Assembly (NCBI RefSeq): GCF_900103955.1
Contig: NZ_FNIL01000008.1
Span: 1-64,000, forward strand
Reading direction: 5' to 3'
Length of the DNA: 64,000 nt
From: Alkalicoccus daliensis
GTDB lineage: Bacteria > Bacillota > Bacilli > Bacillales > Salisediminibacteriaceae
Both the position numbers and the translations under genes were made by a program. The notes below the pieces were generated by a model, which was given only the letters and a program-made list of their open reading frames with translations, did not search any database and was not told where the DNA came from. Below, in pieces: positions 4,117 to 19,006 of this stretch. Position 1 is the stretch's first letter; each line of letters opens with the position of its first letter.

Positions 4117-4555
4117 TGTCCGCATCCGCATGATGGACGTGATCGACATCGAAGGCGTGCTGGAAGTGGAAGCGCTCAGCTTCTCGACGCCGTGGACCAA
4201 AGAAGCGTTTTATCAGGAAATCACCAAAAATCAATTTGCCTATTATTTTATCGCGCAGCTCGGCGGGAAAATCGTCGGCTACTGCGGCCTCTGGGTGGTC
4301 GTGGAAAACGCAAATATCACGAATATTGCCGTGCATCCCGAGTACCGGAAGCAGGGGATCGGGGAAGGCCTTATGAAAGGTGCAGTCGATATGGCGAAAA
4401 TGCTCGGCGCAGAAAAGCTCAGCCTGGAAGTCCGTGTTTCCAATGAAGGGGCACAGCATTTATATAAGAAGTTCGGCTTTCAGCCAGGAGGAATCCGTAA
4501 GCGGTATTATACCGATAATCAAGAAGATGCTTTAGTAATGTGGGTGAATTTATGA
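4079..4555 (+). CDS. rimI: Ribosomal protein bS18 N-alanine acetyltransferase RimI
   Basis: GNAT-fold N-acetyltransferase, 158 residues, expected to acetylate the N terminus of ribosomal protein S18. The acetyl-CoA-binding pyrophosphate loop is seen as RKQGIGEGL, preceded by [10 protein letters not shown] and followed by [19 protein letters not shown], all typical of RimI. The GTG start at 4079 has GGAGG nine bases upstream and gives a 38-bp overlap with tsaB. An ATG at 4130 would cut off the first beta strand. The stop overlaps tsaD. Confidence 0.9.
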
Positions 4556-5574
4556 TGAAAAAAGAAACAACGATTCTTGCGATAGAAACAAGCTGTGATG
4601 AAACGGCAGCTGCTGTGATTCAAAATGGAGATACAATTCTGAGCAATGTAATCGCCTCGCAGATGGAGAGCCACAAACGGTTTGGCGGGGTAGTTCCGGA
4701 AATTGCCTCAAGGCATCATGTGGAACAGATTACGGTCACGATTGAAGAAGCAATGGCCCAGGCAGAAGTGACATTTGCAGATTTGGATGCGATGGCAGTA
4801 ACGGAAGGGCCGGGACTTGTTGGCGCACTCCTTGTCGGTGTAAACGCAGCGAAGGCGATTGCCTTTGCGCATAATCTGCCGCTCATCCCGGTGCATCACA
4901 TTGCAGGACACGTCTATGCTAATCACTTAATCGAGCCGCTTACGTTCCCGCTCATCTCGCTCGTAGTTTCCGGCGGACATACGGAACTGATTTATATGAA
5001 AGAACACGGCCATTTTGCACTGATTGGGGAAACACGGGATGACGCAGTGGGGGAAGCCTATGATAAAGTGGCCCGTACGATCGGGCTGCCGTATCCAGGC
5101 GGCCCGCAGATTGATAAACTGGCGCAGACAGGAGAAGCATCGATTGATTTTCCCCGTGCCTGGCTTGAGGATAACTCCTACGATTTCAGCTTCAGCGGTT
5201 TGAAATCTGCGGTGATTAATACGCTTCATAACGCAAAGCAGAAAGAAGTGGAGATCGCTCCGGAAGTGATCGCAGCAAGCTTTCAGGAAGCGGTCTGTGA
5301 TGTACTCGTAACGAAAACGATGCGCGCCTTAAAAGAATACAACGTCAATAAACTCGTTGTAGCAGGCGGTGTTGCCGCAAACAGCGGACTGCGCCAGGCG
5401 CTGAAGCAGGCAGCAGCAGACGCGGAGGTATCTCTTACGATTCCGCCGCTTGCCTTATGCACAGATAACGCGGCGATGATCGGCAGTGCCGCACATATTC
5501 TTTTTCTGCAGGAGAAGTTTGCAGATGACCGGTTAAACGGCGTCCCAGGACTTTCCCTCACAGAAAATGTGTAA
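4552..5574 (+). CDS. tsaD: tRNA N6-adenosine threonylcarbamoyltransferase TsaD (Gcp)
   Basis: Catalytic subunit that moves the threonylcarbamoyl group onto A37 of tRNA. About 340 residues, with the ASKHA N terminus [11 protein letters not shown], the metal-binding HIAGH motif around residue 116-120, [11 protein letters not shown], the YPGGP segment, and [12 protein letters not shown]. The start at 4552 (ATGA overlap with rimI) is preferred over the GTG at 4540; the ATG at 4555 is also possible. Last gene of the operon and convergent with the ABC-F gene. Confidence 0.95.
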
Positions 5575-5638
5575 GCATCAGCAGCGAAAAAGTATACAGA
5601 AAATACCATATGTATCTTGACAAAGATGAAGATTTTAA

Positions 5639-5674
5639 GCCCCGCAGCAGAATAATATCTGCTGCGGGGCTTTT
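5639..5674 (+). terminator. Rho-independent terminator of the thiL-tsaD operon
   Basis: A 13-bp stem, GCCCCGCAGCAGA / TCTGCTGCGGGGC, is followed by TTTT. Confidence 0.93.
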
Positions 5675-5895
5675 GTGGATAAAGTCAGAATATTTGTGAA
5701 CATTTACAGGAAAAAAGCAATGTTAATAACAATATATGAACAAGTTGTGGATAATGTGAATAAAACGTATACACAGTTGATGGACGGGGATTTGCAGTTG
5801 TTAACAGAAAATTTGTGGATAAGTCCAAAAATTGTGCATAACTTCTAAATTAGTTACGGTGCAGGCTGTTTATATGTGTATAACTCTGAGGATAA
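5674..5895 (+). promoter_or_regulatory. DnaA-box cluster between tsaD and the ABC-F gene
   Basis: Three perfect DnaA boxes, TGTGGATAA (complement of TTATCCACA), lie in the same orientation at 5674-5682, 5746-5754 and 5814-5822. Single-mismatch copies occur at 5755-5763 (TGTGAATAA), 5833-5841 (TGTGCATAA), 5875-5883 (TGTGTATAA) and 5887-5895 (TGAGGATAA). The 430-bp gap between the two convergent genes holds no ORF. From memory, the equivalent gcp-ydiF gap in B. subtilis is one of its known DnaA-binding clusters outside oriC, which would act to titrate DnaA and damp initiation. Confidence 0.82.
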
Positions 5896-5959
5896 CCCGG
5901 AGGGAAGAAAAATACTACGAAACAATGATTGACTTTTTGTAAAGATTGTTGATAGAAAG

Positions 5960-5990
5960 AGAAAACCTGTGGAAAACTGTTTCCCACAGG
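5960..5990 (-). terminator. Rho-independent terminator of the ABC-F gene
   Basis: On the minus strand CCTGTGG and CCACAGG form a 7-bp stem followed by TTTT, directly after the ABC-F stop. Confidence 0.75.
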
Positions 5991-6002
5991 CGACTTTTTC
6001 TC

Positions 6003-7904
6003 TTATTCCTGGAGCGCTTCCCATTCTTCCATCAGTGTTTCAATCTTCGTATGGGACGCCTGCAGTTTTTCATTCAGTTCCAGCGATTTTTGGTGGTCCT
6101 GAAATACTTCGGGAATACAAAGCTCTTCTTCAACCGAAGCTATCGTCTGTTCTTCCGTTTCAATCATCTGTTCAATTTCTTCAATGCGCCGCTGCTTCTG
6201 GCGTTCTTCCTTCTGCTTTTCCTTATTTTTGCGGAAATCGTTTTTCGCCGGAGGAGCGGTGTTGTTTTCCAGCGCATGTTTTTCCTCTGCGAGGCGCTTC
6301 AGTTCCTCCTGCTGAAACTTTTTCTCGACGTAGTAGTCGTAGTCGCCGAGATAGCTTGTGGCAGCCTCCTGGCGCAGTTCAATGACGCGGGTGGCCATCC
6401 GGTTCACGAAATACCGGTCGTGGGATACGAAGATGATGGTCCCCGGATAATCAATCAGCGCATTCTCAAGTACTTCCTTGCTGTCGAGATCGAGGTGGTT
6501 CGTCGGCTCATCAAGAATCAGCAGGTTGGCTTTCTGCATCATCAGCTTAGCAAGCGCGACCCGGGCTTTTTCTCCGCCGCTTAAATCCTGTACATTTTTC
6601 AGCACGTCATCCCCGGTGAATAAAAAGTTGCCGAGTACGGTGCGGATATCTTTTTCGTTCGTCTGCGGATAATCATCCCAGAGCTCCTGCAGCACTGTTT
6701 TGCTGGAATGCAGCTCGGTCTGTTCCTGGTCGTAGTAGCCGATCATGACGTTACTCCCGAGGCGGACAGAGCCGCGGAAAGGCGTAAGACGTCCTGTGAT
6801 CGCTTTTAACAGCGTGGACTTGCCGATACCATTCGGGCCGATTAACGCAACGCTCTCACCGCGTGTGAGCGTCATATTGATATTTTTAATAAGCGGGTCG
6901 ACCTCGTCATAGCTGACGGCGACGTTATCGAGCATTAATACGTCGTTACCGCTCTGGCGCTGGATGGAAAATTGAAAGTTTGCTGATTTATCGTCATCTT
7001 TCGGACGGTCCATCTTTTCCATACGCTCCAGCTGCTTGCGCCGGCTTTTTGCCCGGTTGCTTGTAGAGGCACGTGCCAGATTTCTTTGAATGAAGTCCTC
7101 GAGTTTTTTCACTTCGTCCTGCTGCTTCTCAAAGGATTTCATTTCCTGCTCCATCAGCTTGGCTTTTTCGTCCAGATAGCTGGAATAGTTCCCGGTAAAG
7201 CGGCGCGTCTGGTGGAAAGAAAGCTCGTAGACGTAGTCGACTACTTTATCCAGGATATAGCGGTCGTGGGAAACAATCAGGACGGCGCCGTCATAGGAAG
7301 ACAGATAGCCTTCCAGCCAGGTGAGCGTATCGATATCCAGATGGTTCGTCGGCTCATCGAGAATGAGGAGATCCGGCTTGGCCAGAAGCATCTTCCCGAG
7401 GGCGAGCCGTGTTTTCTGCCCGCCGCTTAAAGAGGAGACAGGGGTATTGTAGTCAAACGACTGGAAGTTCAGTCCGGAAAGAATACTGCGGATTTCCGCT
7501 TCATACTGAAAACCGCCGCGCTGCTGGAATTTCTGCTGCAGCTGGTCGTATTCTGCCAGTACCTTTTCATCTCCGGTAGCCATACGTTCTTCCAGTGCAC
7601 GAAGCTCCCGCTCCATCTGCTGAAGTCCGATAAAGACGGTAAGCATCTCCTCCCAGATAGAACGGTCGGAATCCAGCCCGCTGTCCTGTGCGAGGTAGCC
7701 GATGGAGACTTCTTTCGGAATCATTAAATGGCCTTCATCATGATTCATTTCCCCGGCGAAAATCTTCAGCAGCGTGGACTTGCCTGCGCCGTTTCTGCCG
7801 ACAAGCGCAATCCTCTCTCTGTTTTTCACTTCCATTTTTACGTTCGATAAGATTTGTTCCGATCCAAAAAACTTTGATAATTGGGCACACTGTAATAAAA
7901 TCAT
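6003..7904 (-). CDS. ydiF: ABC-F family ATPase (YdiF type)
   Basis: Soluble twin-ATPase of the ABC-F family, which acts at the ribosome rather than in transport. At 633 residues it matches YdiF-type proteins. Two P-loops are visible, GRNGAGKSTL near residue 40 and GPNGIGKSTL near residue 355, with two signatures SLSGGQKTRLALG and DLSGGEKARVALA and two ILDEPTNHLD Walker B boxes. The linker between domains is basic and charged (residues about 240-310), and a coiled-coil C-terminal tail rich in E/K/Q follows residue 540. Its place between tsaD and moaC-rex is as in B. subtilis. Confidence 0.92.
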   Translation of the reverse strand: MILLQCAQLSKFFGSEQILSNVKMEVKNRERIALVGRNGAGKSTLLKIFAGEMNHDEGHLMIPKEVSIGYLAQDSGLDSDRSIWEEMLTVFIGLQQMERELRALEERMATGDEKVLAEYDQLQQKFQQRGGFQYEAEIRSILSGLNFQSFDYNTPVSSLSGGQKTRLALGKMLLAKPDLLILDEPTNHLDIDTLTWLEGYLSSYDGAVLIVSHDRYILDKVVDYVYELSFHQTRRFTGNYSSYLDEKAKLMEQEMKSFEKQQDEVKKLEDFIQRNLARASTSNRAKSRRKQLERMEKMDRPKDDDKSANFQFSIQRQSGNDVLMLDNVAVSYDEVDPLIKNINMTLTRGESVALIGPNGIGKSTLLKAITGRLTPFRGSVRLGSNVMIGYYDQEQTELHSSKTVLQELWDDYPQTNEKDIRTVLGNFLFTGDDVLKNVQDLSGGEKARVALAKLMMQKANLLILDEPTNHLDLDSKEVLENALIDYPGTIIFVSHDRYFVNRMATRVIELRQEAATSYLGDYDYYVEKKFQQEELKRLAEEKHALENNTAPPAKNDFRKNKEKQKEERQKQRRIEEIEQMIETEEQTIASVEEELCIPEVFQDHQKSLELNEKLQASHTKIETLMEEWEALQE

Positions 7905-12802: not shown

Positions 12803-14089
12803 ATGAAAAAGCTTGCTAAAACAATTACTGCTTTATCAGGAAGTGCTATTTTACTCGGGGCATGTGGAAATGCAGAACAGGCGGAAGAGGAGTCATTTGA
12901 ATTAAACTGGTCTACTACGCCTTCATATTCTACACAAAACCCTACTGAGTCTCAGGCAAATTATATTGCAGATAAAGTAAGTGAATTTGAAGAAGACTAC
13001 CCACAGGTAGAATTGAATACTGATCTTCAATCTACCGATATTGATGAATCTATGACAAGGCTTTTGGAGCAGGCAAATACTGATCGTGCTCCCGATGTAG
13101 CAGCTATTGACGGGTACTTTTTTCCAAGATTTATGGATTACCTTCAGCCTTTAGATGATTTGTTTGACGAATATGAAATTGACATAGATGATTATCTTCC
13201 TTTTGTTCAGGATGTTTTAACTGGTGACGATGGACAAATATATGGTCTTTACATGAATACAGATACTAGAGTACTTTTTTACGATACAGATGTAGTGGAA
13301 GAACCTCCAACTACTTGGGACGAAGCCATTGCAACTTCCCTTGAAATTCAGGAAGAAGGTTACAACGGATTAATTTTTCCAGGAGGACGGGGAGAAGGAA
13401 CTGCTGTGACAACATTATGGCCGCTGTTTTGGGCACAGGAAGGTGAATTAGTCGACGAGGACGGTAATCCTACTTTTGGAGAAGGGGATAACTACGACAA
13501 GATGCTTAATGTACTTCAAGCTGTAAATGAAGCAGTAGAGTCTGGTGCTACTCCTCAAAGAGTCAGCAGTTATGGTGGAGAGAACGATCTTAACGAAGAA
13601 ATTGCTGGCGGTGATACAGCGATGTTTTTAGGAGGCAACTGGCAAGTGTCATTTCTGAGAGAAACTTTAGGAGATGATTTTGACAGTTGGGCAGTAGCTC
13701 CTCTTCCTCAATTGGAAGAAGGACAATTTGCAACAAGTGCCGGAGGCTGGGCATGGGGGATTTTTGCAGAAGAAGAAGAAAAGCAAGAAGCTGCATTTGA
13801 CCTTATTAACCGTCTTTTTGTAGGTGAAGAGGGTATGACAGAATGGACGAATGTCCATGGAGGTCTTCCTTCCCGTACTTCTATTTACGAGGCTGAAGAC
13901 TTAGAAGCTGGTGAATTCAGTGACACTTTTAGAGAGTATTTGGAAGATGCCAACGTAAGACCAGCTTCGCAGCACTATAATGAAATTTCCAATCAGATGC
14001 AGATTGCAGTGTCAGAAGTTATAAGTGGGGGGAAATCACCGGAAGAAGCACTTGACGACGCATGGGCTGTTGTGAATGAAGGGGAGTAA
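12803..14089 (+). CDS. Sugar ABC transporter substrate-binding lipoprotein (family 1)
   Basis: Extracellular lipid-anchored receptor of a carbohydrate ABC importer, 428 residues. Signal peptide with lipobox ending LLGAC (Cys near residue 21). The mature part is very acidic, as in halophilic or alkaliphilic bacteria, and has the SBP family 1 features (DVAAIDGYFFPRF, GLYMNTDTRVLFYDTDV, AMFLGGNWQVSF, AGGWAWGIF). The first gene of the operon with two permeases, a GH38 mannosidase and a ROK kinase. No ATPase gene is present, so a shared MsmX-type ATPase is expected to power it. The ligand is probably a mannoside or manno-oligosaccharide (inference). Confidence 0.9.
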   Translation: MKKLAKTITALSGSAILLGACGNAEQAEEESFELNWSTTPSYSTQNPTESQANYIADKVSEFEEDYPQVELNTDLQSTDIDESMTRLLEQANTDRAPDVAAIDGYFFPRFMDYLQPLDDLFDEYEIDIDDYLPFVQDVLTGDDGQIYGLYMNTDTRVLFYDTDVVEEPPTTWDEAIATSLEIQEEGYNGLIFPGGRGEGTAVTTLWPLFWAQEGELVDEDGNPTFGEGDNYDKMLNVLQAVNEAVESGATPQRVSSYGGENDLNEEIAGGDTAMFLGGNWQVSFLRETLGDDFDSWAVAPLPQLEEGQFATSAGGWAWGIFAEEEEKQEAAFDLINRLFVGEEGMTEWTNVHGGLPSRTSIYEAEDLEAGEFSDTFREYLEDANVRPASQHYNEISNQMQIAVSEVISGGKSPEEALDDAWAVVNEGE

Positions 14090-14098
14090 TGAATTAGT

Positions 14099-15019
14099 AT
14101 GAATACTTCGAATAAGCGCTCAGCACTTTCCCTTACATTAACTAAAGGAATAGGAAACTCTCCTATTCCTTGGTTAATCCCATTATCACTTATACTGCTG
14201 TTCGTATTTCTCTTTCCGGTGTTTGAGATTATACGATACAGTTTTACGGACGCTTCCTTCTTAGAAACTGACTATAGCTATACTATAAGTTCATTTGTTC
14301 GTTTGTTTACTCTTCCCGGGTTTTATCAGATGTTAATCGTTACTTTGATTTTTGTTACCGCTAGTGTGTTTTTTCAAATGTTTTTTGGGTTTTTAATTGC
14401 TCTTTTAATTGATAAAGGTCAGAAATTAAACCTTAAGGGTACGGTAATGGTTAGAACAGCAGTGTTGACAGCCTGGGCCATTCCTGGAGTAGTAATTGGA
14501 ATTATATGGAGGATAATGTATACCGAAACTCCTTCAGGTATTCTCAATTACCTTATCAGTTTTGTAGGTGTAGATATCGTACCATTTTTATCTGATCCGT
14601 ACATGGCACTTTTTGCTGTCACATTAGCGAATATATGGAGAGGAACAGCGTTTAGCATGATTCTTCTTTATGCAGGCATCCAGACACTGCCTAAAGATGT
14701 TATGGAAGCTGCGAAAATTGATGGCGCTTCAGCGATTCAGCGCCTTCTAAAAGTTATGCTTCCTATGCTGGCTCCAATAATATTAATCAATTTAATTATT
14801 ATTTCTATAGATACTTTCAATACATTTGATATGGTAATGGCTTTAACTGGTGGAGGACCAGGCCAAAGCACTGAAGTGATTGCATTAAGTATCTATAACT
14901 CGATTTTTAGAGAGTTTAATCTTGGTCATGGAGCAGCAACTGCCGTAGTTCTATTAACAATCAACGTCGGGATGACCATTGTATATCTTAGAGTTTTAGG
15001 GAAAAGGGGGGCGGCTTAA
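14099..15019 (+). CDS. Sugar ABC transporter permease, MalF type
   Basis: Inner-membrane permease, 306 residues with six hydrophobic segments; the binding-protein-dependent transport signature EAAKIDGASAIQRLLKVMLP (EAA loop) near residue 202 contacts the ATPase. It begins with a long N-terminal hydrophobic stretch (about residues 25-45) followed by FTDASF, as in MalF/UgpA proteins. Ten bases separate it from the binding-protein gene and one base from the next permease, so the three are one transcription unit. Confidence 0.92.
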   Translation: MNTSNKRSALSLTLTKGIGNSPIPWLIPLSLILLFVFLFPVFEIIRYSFTDASFLETDYSYTISSFVRLFTLPGFYQMLIVTLIFVTASVFFQMFFGFLIALLIDKGQKLNLKGTVMVRTAVLTAWAIPGVVIGIIWRIMYTETPSGILNYLISFVGVDIVPFLSDPYMALFAVTLANIWRGTAFSMILLYAGIQTLPKDVMEAAKIDGASAIQRLLKVMLPMLAPIILINLIIISIDTFNTFDMVMALTGGGPGQSTEVIALSIYNSIFREFNLGHGAATAVVLLTINVGMTIVYLRVLGKRGAA

Positions 15020-15020
15020 T

Positions 15021-15863
15021 ATGTTAAATAAAAAACAGCTGCTGTTTACGAAAATTTTTATTTATCTCTGTTATGGCACTGTTCTTGTTTTCTTCCTTTT
15101 TCCTATGCTGTGGGTCATTTCATTATCGTTGAAAACTCAACAGGAATTATTTGCCACACCACCTGCAATAATTCCGACTTCATTTGCATATGAGAATTAC
15201 CTTCACGTACTTGAGAACTCCAACGTATTGCTTTATTTGAGAAACTCGTTCATTATTGTGCTGTTTACTGTGATTTTTGCTCTTATTACAGCTATACCAG
15301 CAGCCTATGCTATTTCGCGATTTCGTTTTAAAGGGAAGAGTGCGCTGCTTGTCACTATTTTAATGACACAGATGATTTCAGCCGTTGTTATCTCAATACC
15401 CTTATATCGGTTGTTTGCTGAATGGGGACTTATTAACAATTACGTAGTTCTCATCATCGTGTACGTTGCCGTGGTACTTCCATTCTCTACTTGGTTTTTG
15501 AAGGGATATTTTGACACGATTCCTTATGAACTAGATGAGGCAGCTATTGTTGATGGATGTACAAGATTTCAAATTTTGACTAGAATTTTAATTCCTACTT
15601 GTCTTCCAGGCATCGTTTCCGTCACCATTTTAATTGCAGTCCAGAGTTGGTCGCAGTTTGTAATTCCTTTTATTCTACTGGATAATGAAAGTTTTTATCC
15701 GGTGTCTGTAGGTGTTATGAATCTTCAATCAACGCAGCAGACTATCAGTACGCATCTGCTTGCAGCAGGCAGTGTTATATCTGTACTGCCAGTAATCATT
15801 TTATTTGTTATACTGCAGCGCTTTATTGTAGGAGCACTCACCAGTGGGGCAGTAAAAGGTTAA
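15021..15863 (+). CDS. Sugar ABC transporter permease, MalG type
   Basis: Second permease of the importer, 280 residues, six membrane segments, with the EAA loop ELDEAAIVDGCTRFQILTRI near residue 172. The Cys in the loop (DGCTRF) is typical of MalG/UgpE proteins. Starts one base after the MalF-type gene stop. Confidence 0.92.
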   Translation: MLNKKQLLFTKIFIYLCYGTVLVFFLFPMLWVISLSLKTQQELFATPPAIIPTSFAYENYLHVLENSNVLLYLRNSFIIVLFTVIFALITAIPAAYAISRFRFKGKSALLVTILMTQMISAVVISIPLYRLFAEWGLINNYVVLIIVYVAVVLPFSTWFLKGYFDTIPYELDEAAIVDGCTRFQILTRILIPTCLPGIVSVTILIAVQSWSQFVIPFILLDNESFYPVSVGVMNLQSTQQTISTHLLAAGSVISVLPVIILFVILQRFIVGALTSGAVKG

Positions 15864-15883
15864 TTTAAAGGAGGAAATAAGCC

Positions 15884-18800
15884 GTGTTTTTAATGGAGCA
15901 AAAACTAAATAATAGAATAAAAGAATTGAACAAATACCGCTATATACTGCAGGAATATATTTGTAATTTTTACGTTTTTGAAGAACCAAATGATACTTCA
16001 GTAAATTCAGGAGATATATCTGACTGGGAGCTCATCGAGACGCCTTCTTATTGGAAAGGCTGGGATCGGTATTTATGGGTTGGTTTTGATATTACGGTCC
16101 CTGATATTGTAGAAGGACGTCGTCCTGTAGGTTTTTTTGATTTTGGCTCTACTGGTCATGGGAATAATTCAGGCTTTGAATCGCAGCTCTATATTGATAA
16201 TCAGCTTTTTCAAGGAGTCGATTCAAATCATCAGGAAGTATTTTTCAAAGAAAATCAATTTGGGAAACCTCTTTCTTTACGTTTTCGTCTTTGGTCAGGG
16301 CTTGATGGTATGGAGGGGAAGTACATGAAGCAGGAACATCTCCTTCATCCTGGGATGATCGGTTGGCTGGACGAAGCGACAGACGACCTTTACTTTAATA
16401 GTCGTGCAATTATTGAAGCTTGCGAATTAATGAATGAAAACGACCCAGTAAAAATTGATCTCTTAAGCCTTTTAGACAAAACCTACCTCTTTATCGACTG
16501 GTCTAATCCAGGAGACGATACCTTCTATGCTTCAATAAAACGGGCTAATACTTATCTCACTGAAGGGCTGGAACAGATGAATCGAGATTCCCCGATCACC
16601 ATTACTGCGCTTGGTCACACACATATTGATGTAGCATGGTTATGGAGACTAAAGCATACAAGAGAAAAGTGCGGGAGATCTTTTTCTACAGTACTCCGAT
16701 TAATGGAAATGTTTCCTGAGTATATCTTTCTTCAAACCCAGCCGCAGTTGTACGAATACGTAAAAGAAGATTACCCTGCTCTTTATAGTGAAATAAAGGA
16801 ACGAATCGAGGAGGGACGATGGGAAGCGGGAGGCAGCATGTGGCTGGAATCCGATGCCAATCTGCCTTCAGGTGAATCATTGGTGAGGCAACTTTTGAAA
16901 GGACAAGCCTTTTTTGACAAAGAATTCGGCGAAAACAGTCAGCTGAAATATTTATGGCTTCCCGACGTATTTGGATATTCCTGGGCACTCCCGCAAATAC
17001 TAAAAAAATCTGGAATTAGTACATTTATGACAACTAAAATCAGCTGGAACCAATACAATCGTATGCCACACGATACGTTTATGTGGCGGGGAATTGATGG
17101 GAGTGAAATACTAACGCATTTTATCACCACCCCTGATCCGAGTGGAAGATTTACCTATAATGGCATGATTGATGCAGAGTCGGTAAATGGCATTTGGGAA
17201 GAATATCAGGATAAAAATGTAAATAAAAATCTTCTATTAGCTTATGGGTATGGAGATGGGGGCGGAGGCGTTACAAGAGATATGCTTGAGATGAGACGTC
17301 GCTTCGATAAAATACCAGGTATGCCCCGTGTTAAAACTGGAAGGGCAGATGATTACTTCAATGAATTGAAAAAAACTATCGATAACACAAATGAATATGT
17401 CCATACCTGGGACGGCGAGCTTTATTTGGAATACCATCGGGGTACTTACACCAGCCAAGCTTATAATAAGAACATGAATCGTAAGCTCGAACTTCAATTA
17501 AGATATGCAGAGATTTTATTGACTCAAACGCAGGTGATTAATGGAGAAAAATATCCCTCCACGAAAAAATTAATTGATGAAGCGTGGATAATATTATTAA
17601 GAAATCAATTCCATGATATTATTCCAGGTTCTTCTATAAGGGAAGTCTATGAAGATAGTAAACAGGAATATGAGGAAGCTTTTTCACTCGTGACCCAAGC
17701 ATTATCACAAACACATCAAAAATATACAAATAATAATTCTACTAAAGAACTCACCGTTTTTAATAGTTCATCATGGGAACAATCTGATTATATAGAGCTT
17801 CCTCAGCCTGGAGAAATCGAAGGGGAGTGGAAAGATGCTTTAGGGAATGTACTTCATACTCAGATATCGAATAATGTTTCTTTAGTTTATGTAAAATCGA
17901 TTCCTGCTTTAAGCAGTGCTCGAATCGTTTTTGAGCCAGGAAAAAACACTGAGCCTGCAAATACAGTAGAATCATTTGAAATAAAAGAGCAGCAAGTTGT
18001 TACTCCATTTTATGATATTACCTGGAATGATGTTGGGCAACTTACGAAAATCAAAGATTTAGAAAACGATAAGAATGTATTAACGGGTGAACCTGCGAAT
18101 GTTTTTAAAGTATTTGAAGATAAACCATTGAATTTTGAGGCATGGGATATTGATATTTTTTACCAAAAAAAATATCAGAATGTAGAAGAACTTATCAGTA
18201 GTGAAATCATTGAAAAAGGACCTCTTCGATATACAATTCGTTTCAAATGGAATTATAAAAATTCTATCATAGAGCAGGATATGATGTTGTATTCGCAAAA
18301 TAGGAGAATTGATTTTGCTACTCGAGTGAACTGGCAGGAACACAATCAACTATTGAAAGTTGCTTTTCCGGTAAATATCCGTGCTACTGAAGCTACTTAC
18401 GATATTCAGTTCGGAAACGTTAAGCGTCCTACTCATTGGAATACAAGCTGGGATATGGCCAGATTTGAAACTGTAGCACATCAGTGGGCAGACTTGTCCG
18501 AAAGGAATTATGGTGTCAGCCTGCTCAATGACAGTAAATATGGATATGACATTAAGAATAATATTATGCGCCTTTCTTTGATTAAATCAGCTGTAAGTCC
18601 TGATGCCTCCCAAGATCAAGGAGATCACTTTTTCACATACGCTTTATATCCTCATAAAGGAGATTGGTATGAAGGCGGAACAGTAAAAGCGGCCTGGCAA
18701 TTAAACCAACCATTTCAAGTTCATGACAGCCAAAGCAGTATACCTGAAAAACAATTATTTTACGCTGACCAAGAACATATAATGATTGATGCAGTAAAAC

Positions 18801-19006
18801 CAGCTGAAGATGGAGAAGGTATAGTACTTCGTATACATGAATATTCTGGTCAGCAAAGCTCCATTACATTGAAAAGTGATTTTCGAATAAAATCCTGGCA
18901 GCACTGCGATTTGATGGAACGACCTGAAGGGACTATACAGGAGGATAGAGTTATATATGATGAGATTCAGCCTTATGAAATCAAAACTTATTTAATATAC
19001 TTCTAA
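15884..19006 (+). CDS. Alpha-mannosidase, glycoside hydrolase family 38
   Basis: Large cytoplasmic retaining exo-alpha-mannosidase, 1040 residues, without a signal peptide. The zinc-binding HTHIDVAWLW motif lies near residue 247, and the catalytic nucleophile is D361 in WLPDVFGYSW. A C-terminal GH38 beta domain follows (residues about 620-1040). The GTG start is favoured since AAAGGAGG precedes it by 9 nt; an ATG three codons later is possible. In the operon it would hydrolyse imported alpha-mannosides to mannose, which the ROK kinase downstream can phosphorylate. Composition is more AT-rich than the core genes, consistent with acquisition. Confidence 0.93.
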   Translation: MFLMEQKLNNRIKELNKYRYILQEYICNFYVFEEPNDTSVNSGDISDWELIETPSYWKGWDRYLWVGFDITVPDIVEGRRPVGFFDFGSTGHGNNSGFESQLYIDNQLFQGVDSNHQEVFFKENQFGKPLSLRFRLWSGLDGMEGKYMKQEHLLHPGMIGWLDEATDDLYFNSRAIIEACELMNENDPVKIDLLSLLDKTYLFIDWSNPGDDTFYASIKRANTYLTEGLEQMNRDSPITITALGHTHIDVAWLWRLKHTREKCGRSFSTVLRLMEMFPEYIFLQTQPQLYEYVKEDYPALYSEIKERIEEGRWEAGGSMWLESDANLPSGESLVRQLLKGQAFFDKEFGENSQLKYLWLPDVFGYSWALPQILKKSGISTFMTTKISWNQYNRMPHDTFMWRGIDGSEILTHFITTPDPSGRFTYNGMIDAESVNGIWEEYQDKNVNKNLLLAYGYGDGGGGVTRDMLEMRRRFDKIPGMPRVKTGRADDYFNELKKTIDNTNEYVHTWDGELYLEYHRGTYTSQAYNKNMNRKLELQLRYAEILLTQTQVINGEKYPSTKKLIDEAWIILLRNQFHDIIPGSSIREVYEDSKQEYEEAFSLVTQALSQTHQKYTNNNSTKELTVFNSSSWEQSDYIELPQPGEIEGEWKDALGNVLHTQISNNVSLVYVKSIPALSSARIVFEPGKNTEPANTVESFEIKEQQVVTPFYDITWNDVGQLTKIKDLENDKNVLTGEPANVFKVFEDKPLNFEAWDIDIFYQKKYQNVEELISSEIIEKGPLRYTIRFKWNYKNSIIEQDMMLYSQNRRIDFATRVNWQEHNQLLKVAFPVNIRATEATYDIQFGNVKRPTHWNTSWDMARFETVAHQWADLSERNYGVSLLNDSKYGYDIKNNIMRLSLIKSAVSPDASQDQGDHFFTYALYPHKGDWYEGGTVKAAWQLNQPFQVHDSQSSIPEKQLFYADQEHIMIDAVKPAEDGEGIVLRIHEYSGQQSSITLKSDFRIKSWQHCDLMERPEGTIQEDRVIYDEIQPYEIKTYLIYF

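Follow-up and report, generated by a model that had tools for sequence, protein, structure and literature searches.

A one-directional row of predicted DnaA boxes after tsaD recurs across Bacillota and may restrain the start of replication

Behind the tsaD gene of Alkalicoccus daliensis lies a row of predicted DnaA boxes that all point in one direction, antisense to tsaD, and similarly spaced rows follow the same gene in many distantly related Bacillota. So wide a recurrence of a one-directional, regularly spaced row after tsaD would fit an ancient buffer, kept through evolution, against untimely replication starts. The boxes, their single direction, their spacings, their tie to tsaD and their wide conservation are read from genome sequences with motif and profile models. 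We infer that DnaA binds the row in A. daliensis and that restraint of initiation is the function for which this cluster was selected. Restraint by holding DnaA is the likeliest function; a switch like datA of E. coli and an effect in cis on tsaD are less likely alternatives.

The window, by which we mean the whole stretch of DNA that was analysed, comprises positions 1-64,000 of the forward strand of contig NZ_FNIL01000008.1 (A. daliensis, GCF_900103955.1). In it, tsaD closes what we take to be a tsaE-tsaB-rimI-tsaD-like run, the other three names coming from open reading frames judged by eye. It converges with a gene for an ABC-F ATPase, and both genes end in the gap between them (5575-6002). 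The features of this region are as follows, the boxes being motif matches.

4555-5574, plus strand: tsaD (gcp), NCBIfam TIGR03723, score above cut-off
5637-5672, plus strand: terminator-like hairpin of tsaD, 15 pairs, fold of -31.2 kcal/mol, z -7.3
5674-5682, minus strand: perfect DnaA box, TTATCCACA
5746-5754, minus strand: perfect DnaA box, TTATCCACA
5755-5763, minus strand: DnaA box with one mismatch, TTATTCACA, abutting the previous one (9-bp step)
5814-5822, minus strand: perfect DnaA box, TTATCCACA
5833-5841, minus strand: DnaA box with one mismatch, TTATGCACA
5875-5883, minus strand: DnaA box with one mismatch, TTATACACA, 42-bp step from the previous one
5887-5895, minus strand: DnaA box with one mismatch in the CACA end, TTATCCTCA, 12-bp step
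5968-5976, minus strand: box-like TTTTCCACA in the stem of the ABC-F terminator (motif match and fold), doubtful as a DnaA site
5812-5902, minus strand: array core, match to profile R1, 38.6 bits
5965-5991, minus strand: terminator of the ABC-F gene, by consensus scan and fold
6003-7904, minus strand: ABC-F ATPase in the YdiF position, NCBIfam NF000355, score above cut-off

The sequence-only reading of this DNA had counted three perfect and at least four single-mismatch boxes in the convergent gap, mostly in one direction. Between 5674 and 5976 we find eight predicted boxes, three perfect and five with one mismatch, and every one of them is on the minus strand, which confirms the reading. Seven is the safer count, because the box at 5968-5976 sits in the ABC-F terminator stem and may not work; terminator and DnaA site may be merged at 5965-5991. 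The start-to-start steps of the eight boxes are 72, 9, 59, 19, 42, 12 and 81 bp. From dinucleotide shuffles of the window, 16.5 boxes per 64 kb are expected when a single mismatch is tolerated, and hence 0.08 in the 303 bp of the array, for a Poisson P(≥8) of ~3e-14, a value not corrected for the stretch having been picked out. A further copy of TTATGCACA at 5455-5463 lies inside the tsaD coding sequence, recurs at about -111/-120 in several relatives, and probably represents conserved codons of tsaD.

The array is bracketed by the tsaD hairpin and the ABC-F terminator, and the short T tail of the hairpin runs into the first DnaA box. The consensus terminator scan of the gap flagged only the ABC-F terminator and not this hairpin. 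A promoter or an RNA in the gap was considered and seems unlikely: promoter-like matches number 3 against 1.2 expected (sd 1.3), and the Rfam scan of the gap returned no family at its gathering score, the two matches on the tsaD hairpin both lying far under theirs. Elsewhere in the window, 12803-19006 holds sugar-ABC-like genes followed by a large alpha-mannosidase-like open reading frame (names by eye).

The sequence-only reading had named a DnaA-binding cluster in the gcp-ydiF gap of Bacillus subtilis, and such a cluster is indeed described. In the data tabulated in PMC4447404, where the gap between gcp (tsaD) and ydiF is region 4 of Table 1, DnaA binds this site with high affinity and a preference for the ATP form; the site has 10 boxes and an apparent Kd of 0.15 uM for ATP-DnaA and 0.33 uM for ADP-DnaA, recovered 16-fold more with ATP-DnaA than with ADP-DnaA at 55 nM. 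The same source places it among the strongest B. subtilis sites, together with rpmH/dnaA, dnaA-dnaN, ywcI/vpr, trmE/jag, ywlC, yqeG/sda and yydA/yyzF. Reviews state that deleting six B. subtilis clusters outside oriC together leads to early initiation (PMC5295017, PMC13220808), and that ~10-fold overproduced DnaA causes no over-initiation in this species (PMC13220808). Such clusters have been termed inhibitory, as sequestering DnaA (PMC11019786). Most of the other B. subtilis clusters adjoin DnaA-regulated genes, whereas gcp and ydiF are absent from the eight directly DnaA-regulated gene sets listed in PMC8203912. A 2026 review, in its treatment of B. subtilis, calls it unknown whether the species has regulators of DnaA ATP/ADP interconversion and reports that datA, DARS1, DARS2 and IHF are absent from it.

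The A. daliensis array and the B. subtilis gcp/ydiF cluster share the same two convergent genes and a non-coding gap between their 3' ends, and their box numbers are similar, at 10 by position matrix in B. subtilis and 8 by mismatch count in A. daliensis. They differ in that binding has been demonstrated in B. subtilis, whereas the A. daliensis array is known from its sequence and is here likened to the published description. The other B. subtilis clusters (ywlC, yydA/yyzF, trmE/jag, yqeG/sda and ywcI/vpr) resemble it in having dense boxes outside oriC, but they adjoin genes listed as DnaA-regulated and gcp/ydiF does not. The reviews cite Okumura 2012 for the deletion of the six clusters. Our literature search turned up no account of the array's deep conservation; Okumura 2012 and Ishikawa 2007 may discuss it among Bacillus.

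The A. daliensis genome has 52 perfect boxes in 3.78 Mb, and four places have at least three of them within 460 bp. One is the tsaD array; the others are oriC, a site upstream of a ywlC-type gene, and a site between htrA-like and photolyase-like genes, with gene names read by eye from translations. Taking oriC to be a place beside dnaA/dnaN or rpmH, the tsaD array is outside it: dnaA and dnaN are on contig C27, and the array is flanked by tsaD and the ABC-F gene. The cluster upstream of the ywlC-type (TsaC-like) gene, after prmC (L111, G000:C23:43000-47000, array at 1654-1823), has steps that include 42, 41 and 12 bp. With the tsaD array it gives two t6A genes with clusters, as in B. subtilis. 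The cluster between the htrA-like and photolyase-like genes (L113, G000:C27:45500-50000, at 1961-2464) is possibly the counterpart of the yydA/yyzF cluster, which presumably also lies near an htrA-type gene. A trmE/jag cluster was sought in this genome, and the jag-like open reading frame had one perfect box past it and one one-mismatch box within it, but no cluster.

Of 30 loci from the organism's own family, 29 carry four or more antisense boxes in the 330 bp that follow tsaD, the exception being L020. Further afield in the Bacilli, the array is present in Neobacillus, Anoxybacillus, Brevibacillus, Planococcus, Lysinibacillus, Halobacillus and Kroppenstedtia, and also in some Paenibacillus, Saccharibacillus and Macrococcus bovicus. 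It had been proposed that relatives sharing the gene order but lacking boxes would refute the cluster's conservation. A few of these exist, in that Marinococcus luteus (L051) and Shouchella miscanthi (L054) have gaps of 59 and 44 bp with no array. A 30-position triple-box pattern with up to three mismatches had no match in the A. daliensis genome, even at the tsaD array, whose version of the triple has an imperfect box, and it was replaced by profile R1. R1 is a sequence-only profile of 109 positions made from 28 Bacilli arrays beside tsaD, the A. daliensis array (which has a weaker second match of 19.3 bits at 5723-5782) being one of them.

R1 was run on 200 Bacilli genomes, and since it was made from Bacilli arrays beside tsaD, the result in this class is partly circular. 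Among the matches listed, 136 have a listed tsaD place (8 of 144 without one were set aside); 72 of these fall in the 3.5 kb that follow tsaD, all but one (71) antisense to it, and 64 lie elsewhere. Together with box counts for 40 flanks, mainly ones without a near R1 match, this makes at least 95 of the 200 genomes and at least 28 of 43 families positive. A tsaD place is listed for 37 families, nine of which were never positive among the matches listed, and six further families have no listed place. In f5, which is among the nine, the contig breaks and an array stands next to the ABC-F gene on a different contig; in f40, which is among the six, G122 has an R1 array next to tsaD. In family f13, R1 and box counts found no array at tsaD. 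Two genomes of that family (G140 and G129) have R1 matches of 49.8 and 45.2 bits near an ABC-transporter-like gene (L128 and L144), possibly a relocated cluster.

From the phylum sample, which is confined to Bacillota, we set five Bacilli genomes aside and used the 114 non-Bacilli genomes, from 68 families. At least 62 of these genomes, in at least 36 families, have an R1 array within 3.5 kb after tsaD. Among the matches listed, 72 of 148 are near tsaD, with ~0.2 expected by chance, and 71 of the 72 are antisense; 32 of the 68 families have no R1 array near tsaD among these matches. The only sense-oriented near array listed for this sample is in G278. Named carriers are Alkaliphilus peptidifermentans (Clostridia) and Sporomusa malonica (Negativicutes), joined by a Clostridiaceae MAG and Clostridiales PH28_bin88; a Peptococcaceae MAG has an array by R1 and two boxes by count. 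Most of the Lachnospiraceae and Erysipelotrichaceae tsaD loci that we fetched had no cluster.

A test independent of R1 took 40 of the 114 genomes at even steps of the list, disregarding boxes, and examined 1.5 kb after tsaD. Over the first 500 bp of the 40 flanks, 123 boxes are antisense and 10 are sense, against 6 for the reversed motif, 5.1 for shuffles, and 23 on both strands at 700-1500 bp from tsaD. Three or more antisense boxes occur within 500 bp in 25 of the 40 flanks (21 of 35 families), and three or more sense boxes in none of the 40. The claim that the site itself is conserved thus stands well beyond the Bacillaceae, but the conserved unit is tsaD with its array and not the tsaD/ABC-F gap.

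That the array belongs to tsaD and not to this gap is new, and it rests on the neighbours. In the unselected non-Bacilli flanks, the next long open reading frame is co-directional with tsaD in 23 of 25 that bear an array and in 13 of 15 that do not, and the next gene after the array is of varied kind by eye. We therefore rejected ABC-F as a conserved partner. Because the next gene varies, a neighbour's promoter is also unlikely as the conserved target. The distance from tsaD to the array reaches ~2.9 kb in some genomes.

The cluster had also been described as near oriC. In 34 complete or nearly complete array-bearing genomes, the distance between tsaD and dnaA amounts to 8-29% of the chromosome (median 16%, several chromosome lengths being rounded); 22 of these genomes have tsaD on the right arm and 12 on the left, and in 33 it is a leading-strand gene. 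Among 47 genomes, the 13 counted as array-less by R1 have a median of 18%, so that proximity to oriC is not specific to array bearers. Five of these 13 (G137, G032, G131, G290 and G339) reach three or more antisense boxes by count, and if they are included the range becomes 8-36%. In G261 tsaD runs head-on to the fork and yet keeps its array antisense, and from this one case the array would follow tsaD rather than the fork.

The spacings within the arrays recur. In 64 clusters (60 from Bacilli and 4 others), pairs of boxes 9 bp apart number 69 against 10.7 expected, with 41 against 9.9 at 12 bp, 34 against 8.5 at 21 bp and 25 against 7.7 at 42 bp, all above every one of 300 random placements of boxes inside each cluster, a null that ignores kinship. 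The unselected non-Bacilli flanks give 24 against 4.0 at 9 bp, 12 against 3.6 at 12 bp, 13 against 3.7 at 21 bp and 9 against 2.1 at 43 bp, topping all 200 random placements, while 42 bp (5 pairs) stays below the null maximum of 9. Steps of 21 and 42 bp correspond to full turns of the double helix, and spacing of this kind would set boxes on one face for a cooperative complex. The oriC of Bacillota is related in kind: R1 matches oriC regions, and in 16 oriC loci the 9- and 43-bp pairs exceed the null maximum. It differs in that 32 and 54 bp do so as well, 12 and 42 bp do not, and dnaA, dnaN and rpmH are absent beside the tsaD array.

The explanation that we prefer, at a probability of roughly 0.6, is that the array is a non-coding DnaA-binding locus outside oriC, with a fixed geometry, that draws DnaA off oriC and restrains initiation. 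Head-to-tail boxes at 9, 12, 21 and 42/43 bp would nucleate a cooperative DnaA complex outside oriC; passage of the fork would double the array; the doubled array would pull DnaA, probably ATP-DnaA first, away from oriC; and the loss of DnaA from oriC would help to prevent early initiation. A non-transcriptional role is favoured because gcp and ydiF are not in the DnaA-regulated list of PMC8203912. Simple titration is weakened by the lack of over-initiation at ~10-fold DnaA overproduction (PMC13220808). It counts against the preferred explanation that a plain sink needs neither fixed spacing, nor direction, nor a constant gene neighbour, and so do the several families in which the array never appeared.

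A rival reading has the array act in cis on tsaD, with antisense-bound DnaA blocking read-through or shaping the 3' end of the transcript and so linking t6A modification to the state of replication. The array comes after tsaD irrespective of the next gene, is antisense in 71 of 72 near matches in each of the two samples (among the matches listed), keeps that orientation in G261, and a ywlC-type gene is clustered too, here and in B. subtilis. But in A. daliensis a strong hairpin precedes the array, gcp is missing from the list quoted in PMC8203912, and the array is hundreds to thousands of bp off tsaD in some genomes, and we regard a cis effect as rather unlikely. Recurring geometry could instead make bound DnaA hydrolyse or exchange its nucleotide. 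E. coli datA, DARS1 and DARS2 are likewise non-coding DnaA-box loci outside oriC with a possible restraint of initiation, datA being tied to IHF and to hydrolysis of DnaA-bound ATP. An active switch of this sort, which we judge about as improbable as the cis effect, fits the recurring spacings, the ATP-DnaA preference of the B. subtilis site (PMC4447404) and the interconversion question raised in the 2026 review, but the same review reports the E. coli loci and IHF as absent from B. subtilis.

It seems very unlikely that the boxes regulate a promoter within or next to the gap. Most other B. subtilis clusters do adjoin DnaA-regulated genes (PMC8203912), and in non-Bacilli the next gene often begins past the array, but in A. 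daliensis both genes end in the gap, its promoter-like and Rfam matches are those given above, and across genomes the downstream gene is inconstant. A chance cluster in AT-rich intergenic DNA can practically be dismissed: gap and motif are both AT-rich, but eight boxes stand against 0.08 expected, and the 40 flanks hold 133 boxes against 6 and 5.1 in the controls, with a strand bias of 123:10. We offer tentatively, as less likely than not, the further idea that the tsaD-linked array is a DnaA control locus of Bacillota as a whole, possibly present in their common ancestor: a platform of fixed geometry on which an oriC-like complex forms, the Gram-positive counterpart of datA, whose lasting place after tsaD would reflect a real coupling of t6A modification to initiation.

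In the papers that we searched, Gram-positive clusters outside oriC are discussed for B. subtilis, as sinks or as promoter sites. Here one of them, the cluster without a listed regulated gene, recurs in Bacilli, Clostridia and Negativicutes after tsaD, with its orientation and spacings preserved. The array offers a concrete place to ask whether B. subtilis has regulators that interconvert the ATP and ADP forms of DnaA, and from the survey DnaA would be expected to bind behind tsaD in many species yet to be studied.

Away from tsaD, R1 often matches oriC or else a locus, of similar box geometry, that is marked by comFC, an amino-acid ABC binding protein and/or hpf. This locus accounts for 10 of the best 30 phylum matches and 23 of 40 further ones sampled away from tsaD (L202, L203, L205, L206, L209, L218, L223, L224, L232, L239 and others), and in Bacilli for 3 of the best 30 matches and 6 of 18 newly fetched far matches (L122, L124, L143, L147, L151, L154 and L155 being Bacilli loci of this kind), several loci being assigned by a binding-protein match alone, which is a loose criterion. 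Five of 20 further far R1 matches had none of the named neighbours, and no gene of this locus is named in the B. subtilis top-20 DnaA sites as tabulated in PMC4447404. Spacings in this second array are 9, 12, 21 and 43 bp, and 34 of 47 loci have three same-strand boxes. It lies on the chromosome arm opposite tsaD in 6 of 7 complete genomes checked, and it may be the partner of the tsaD-linked array.
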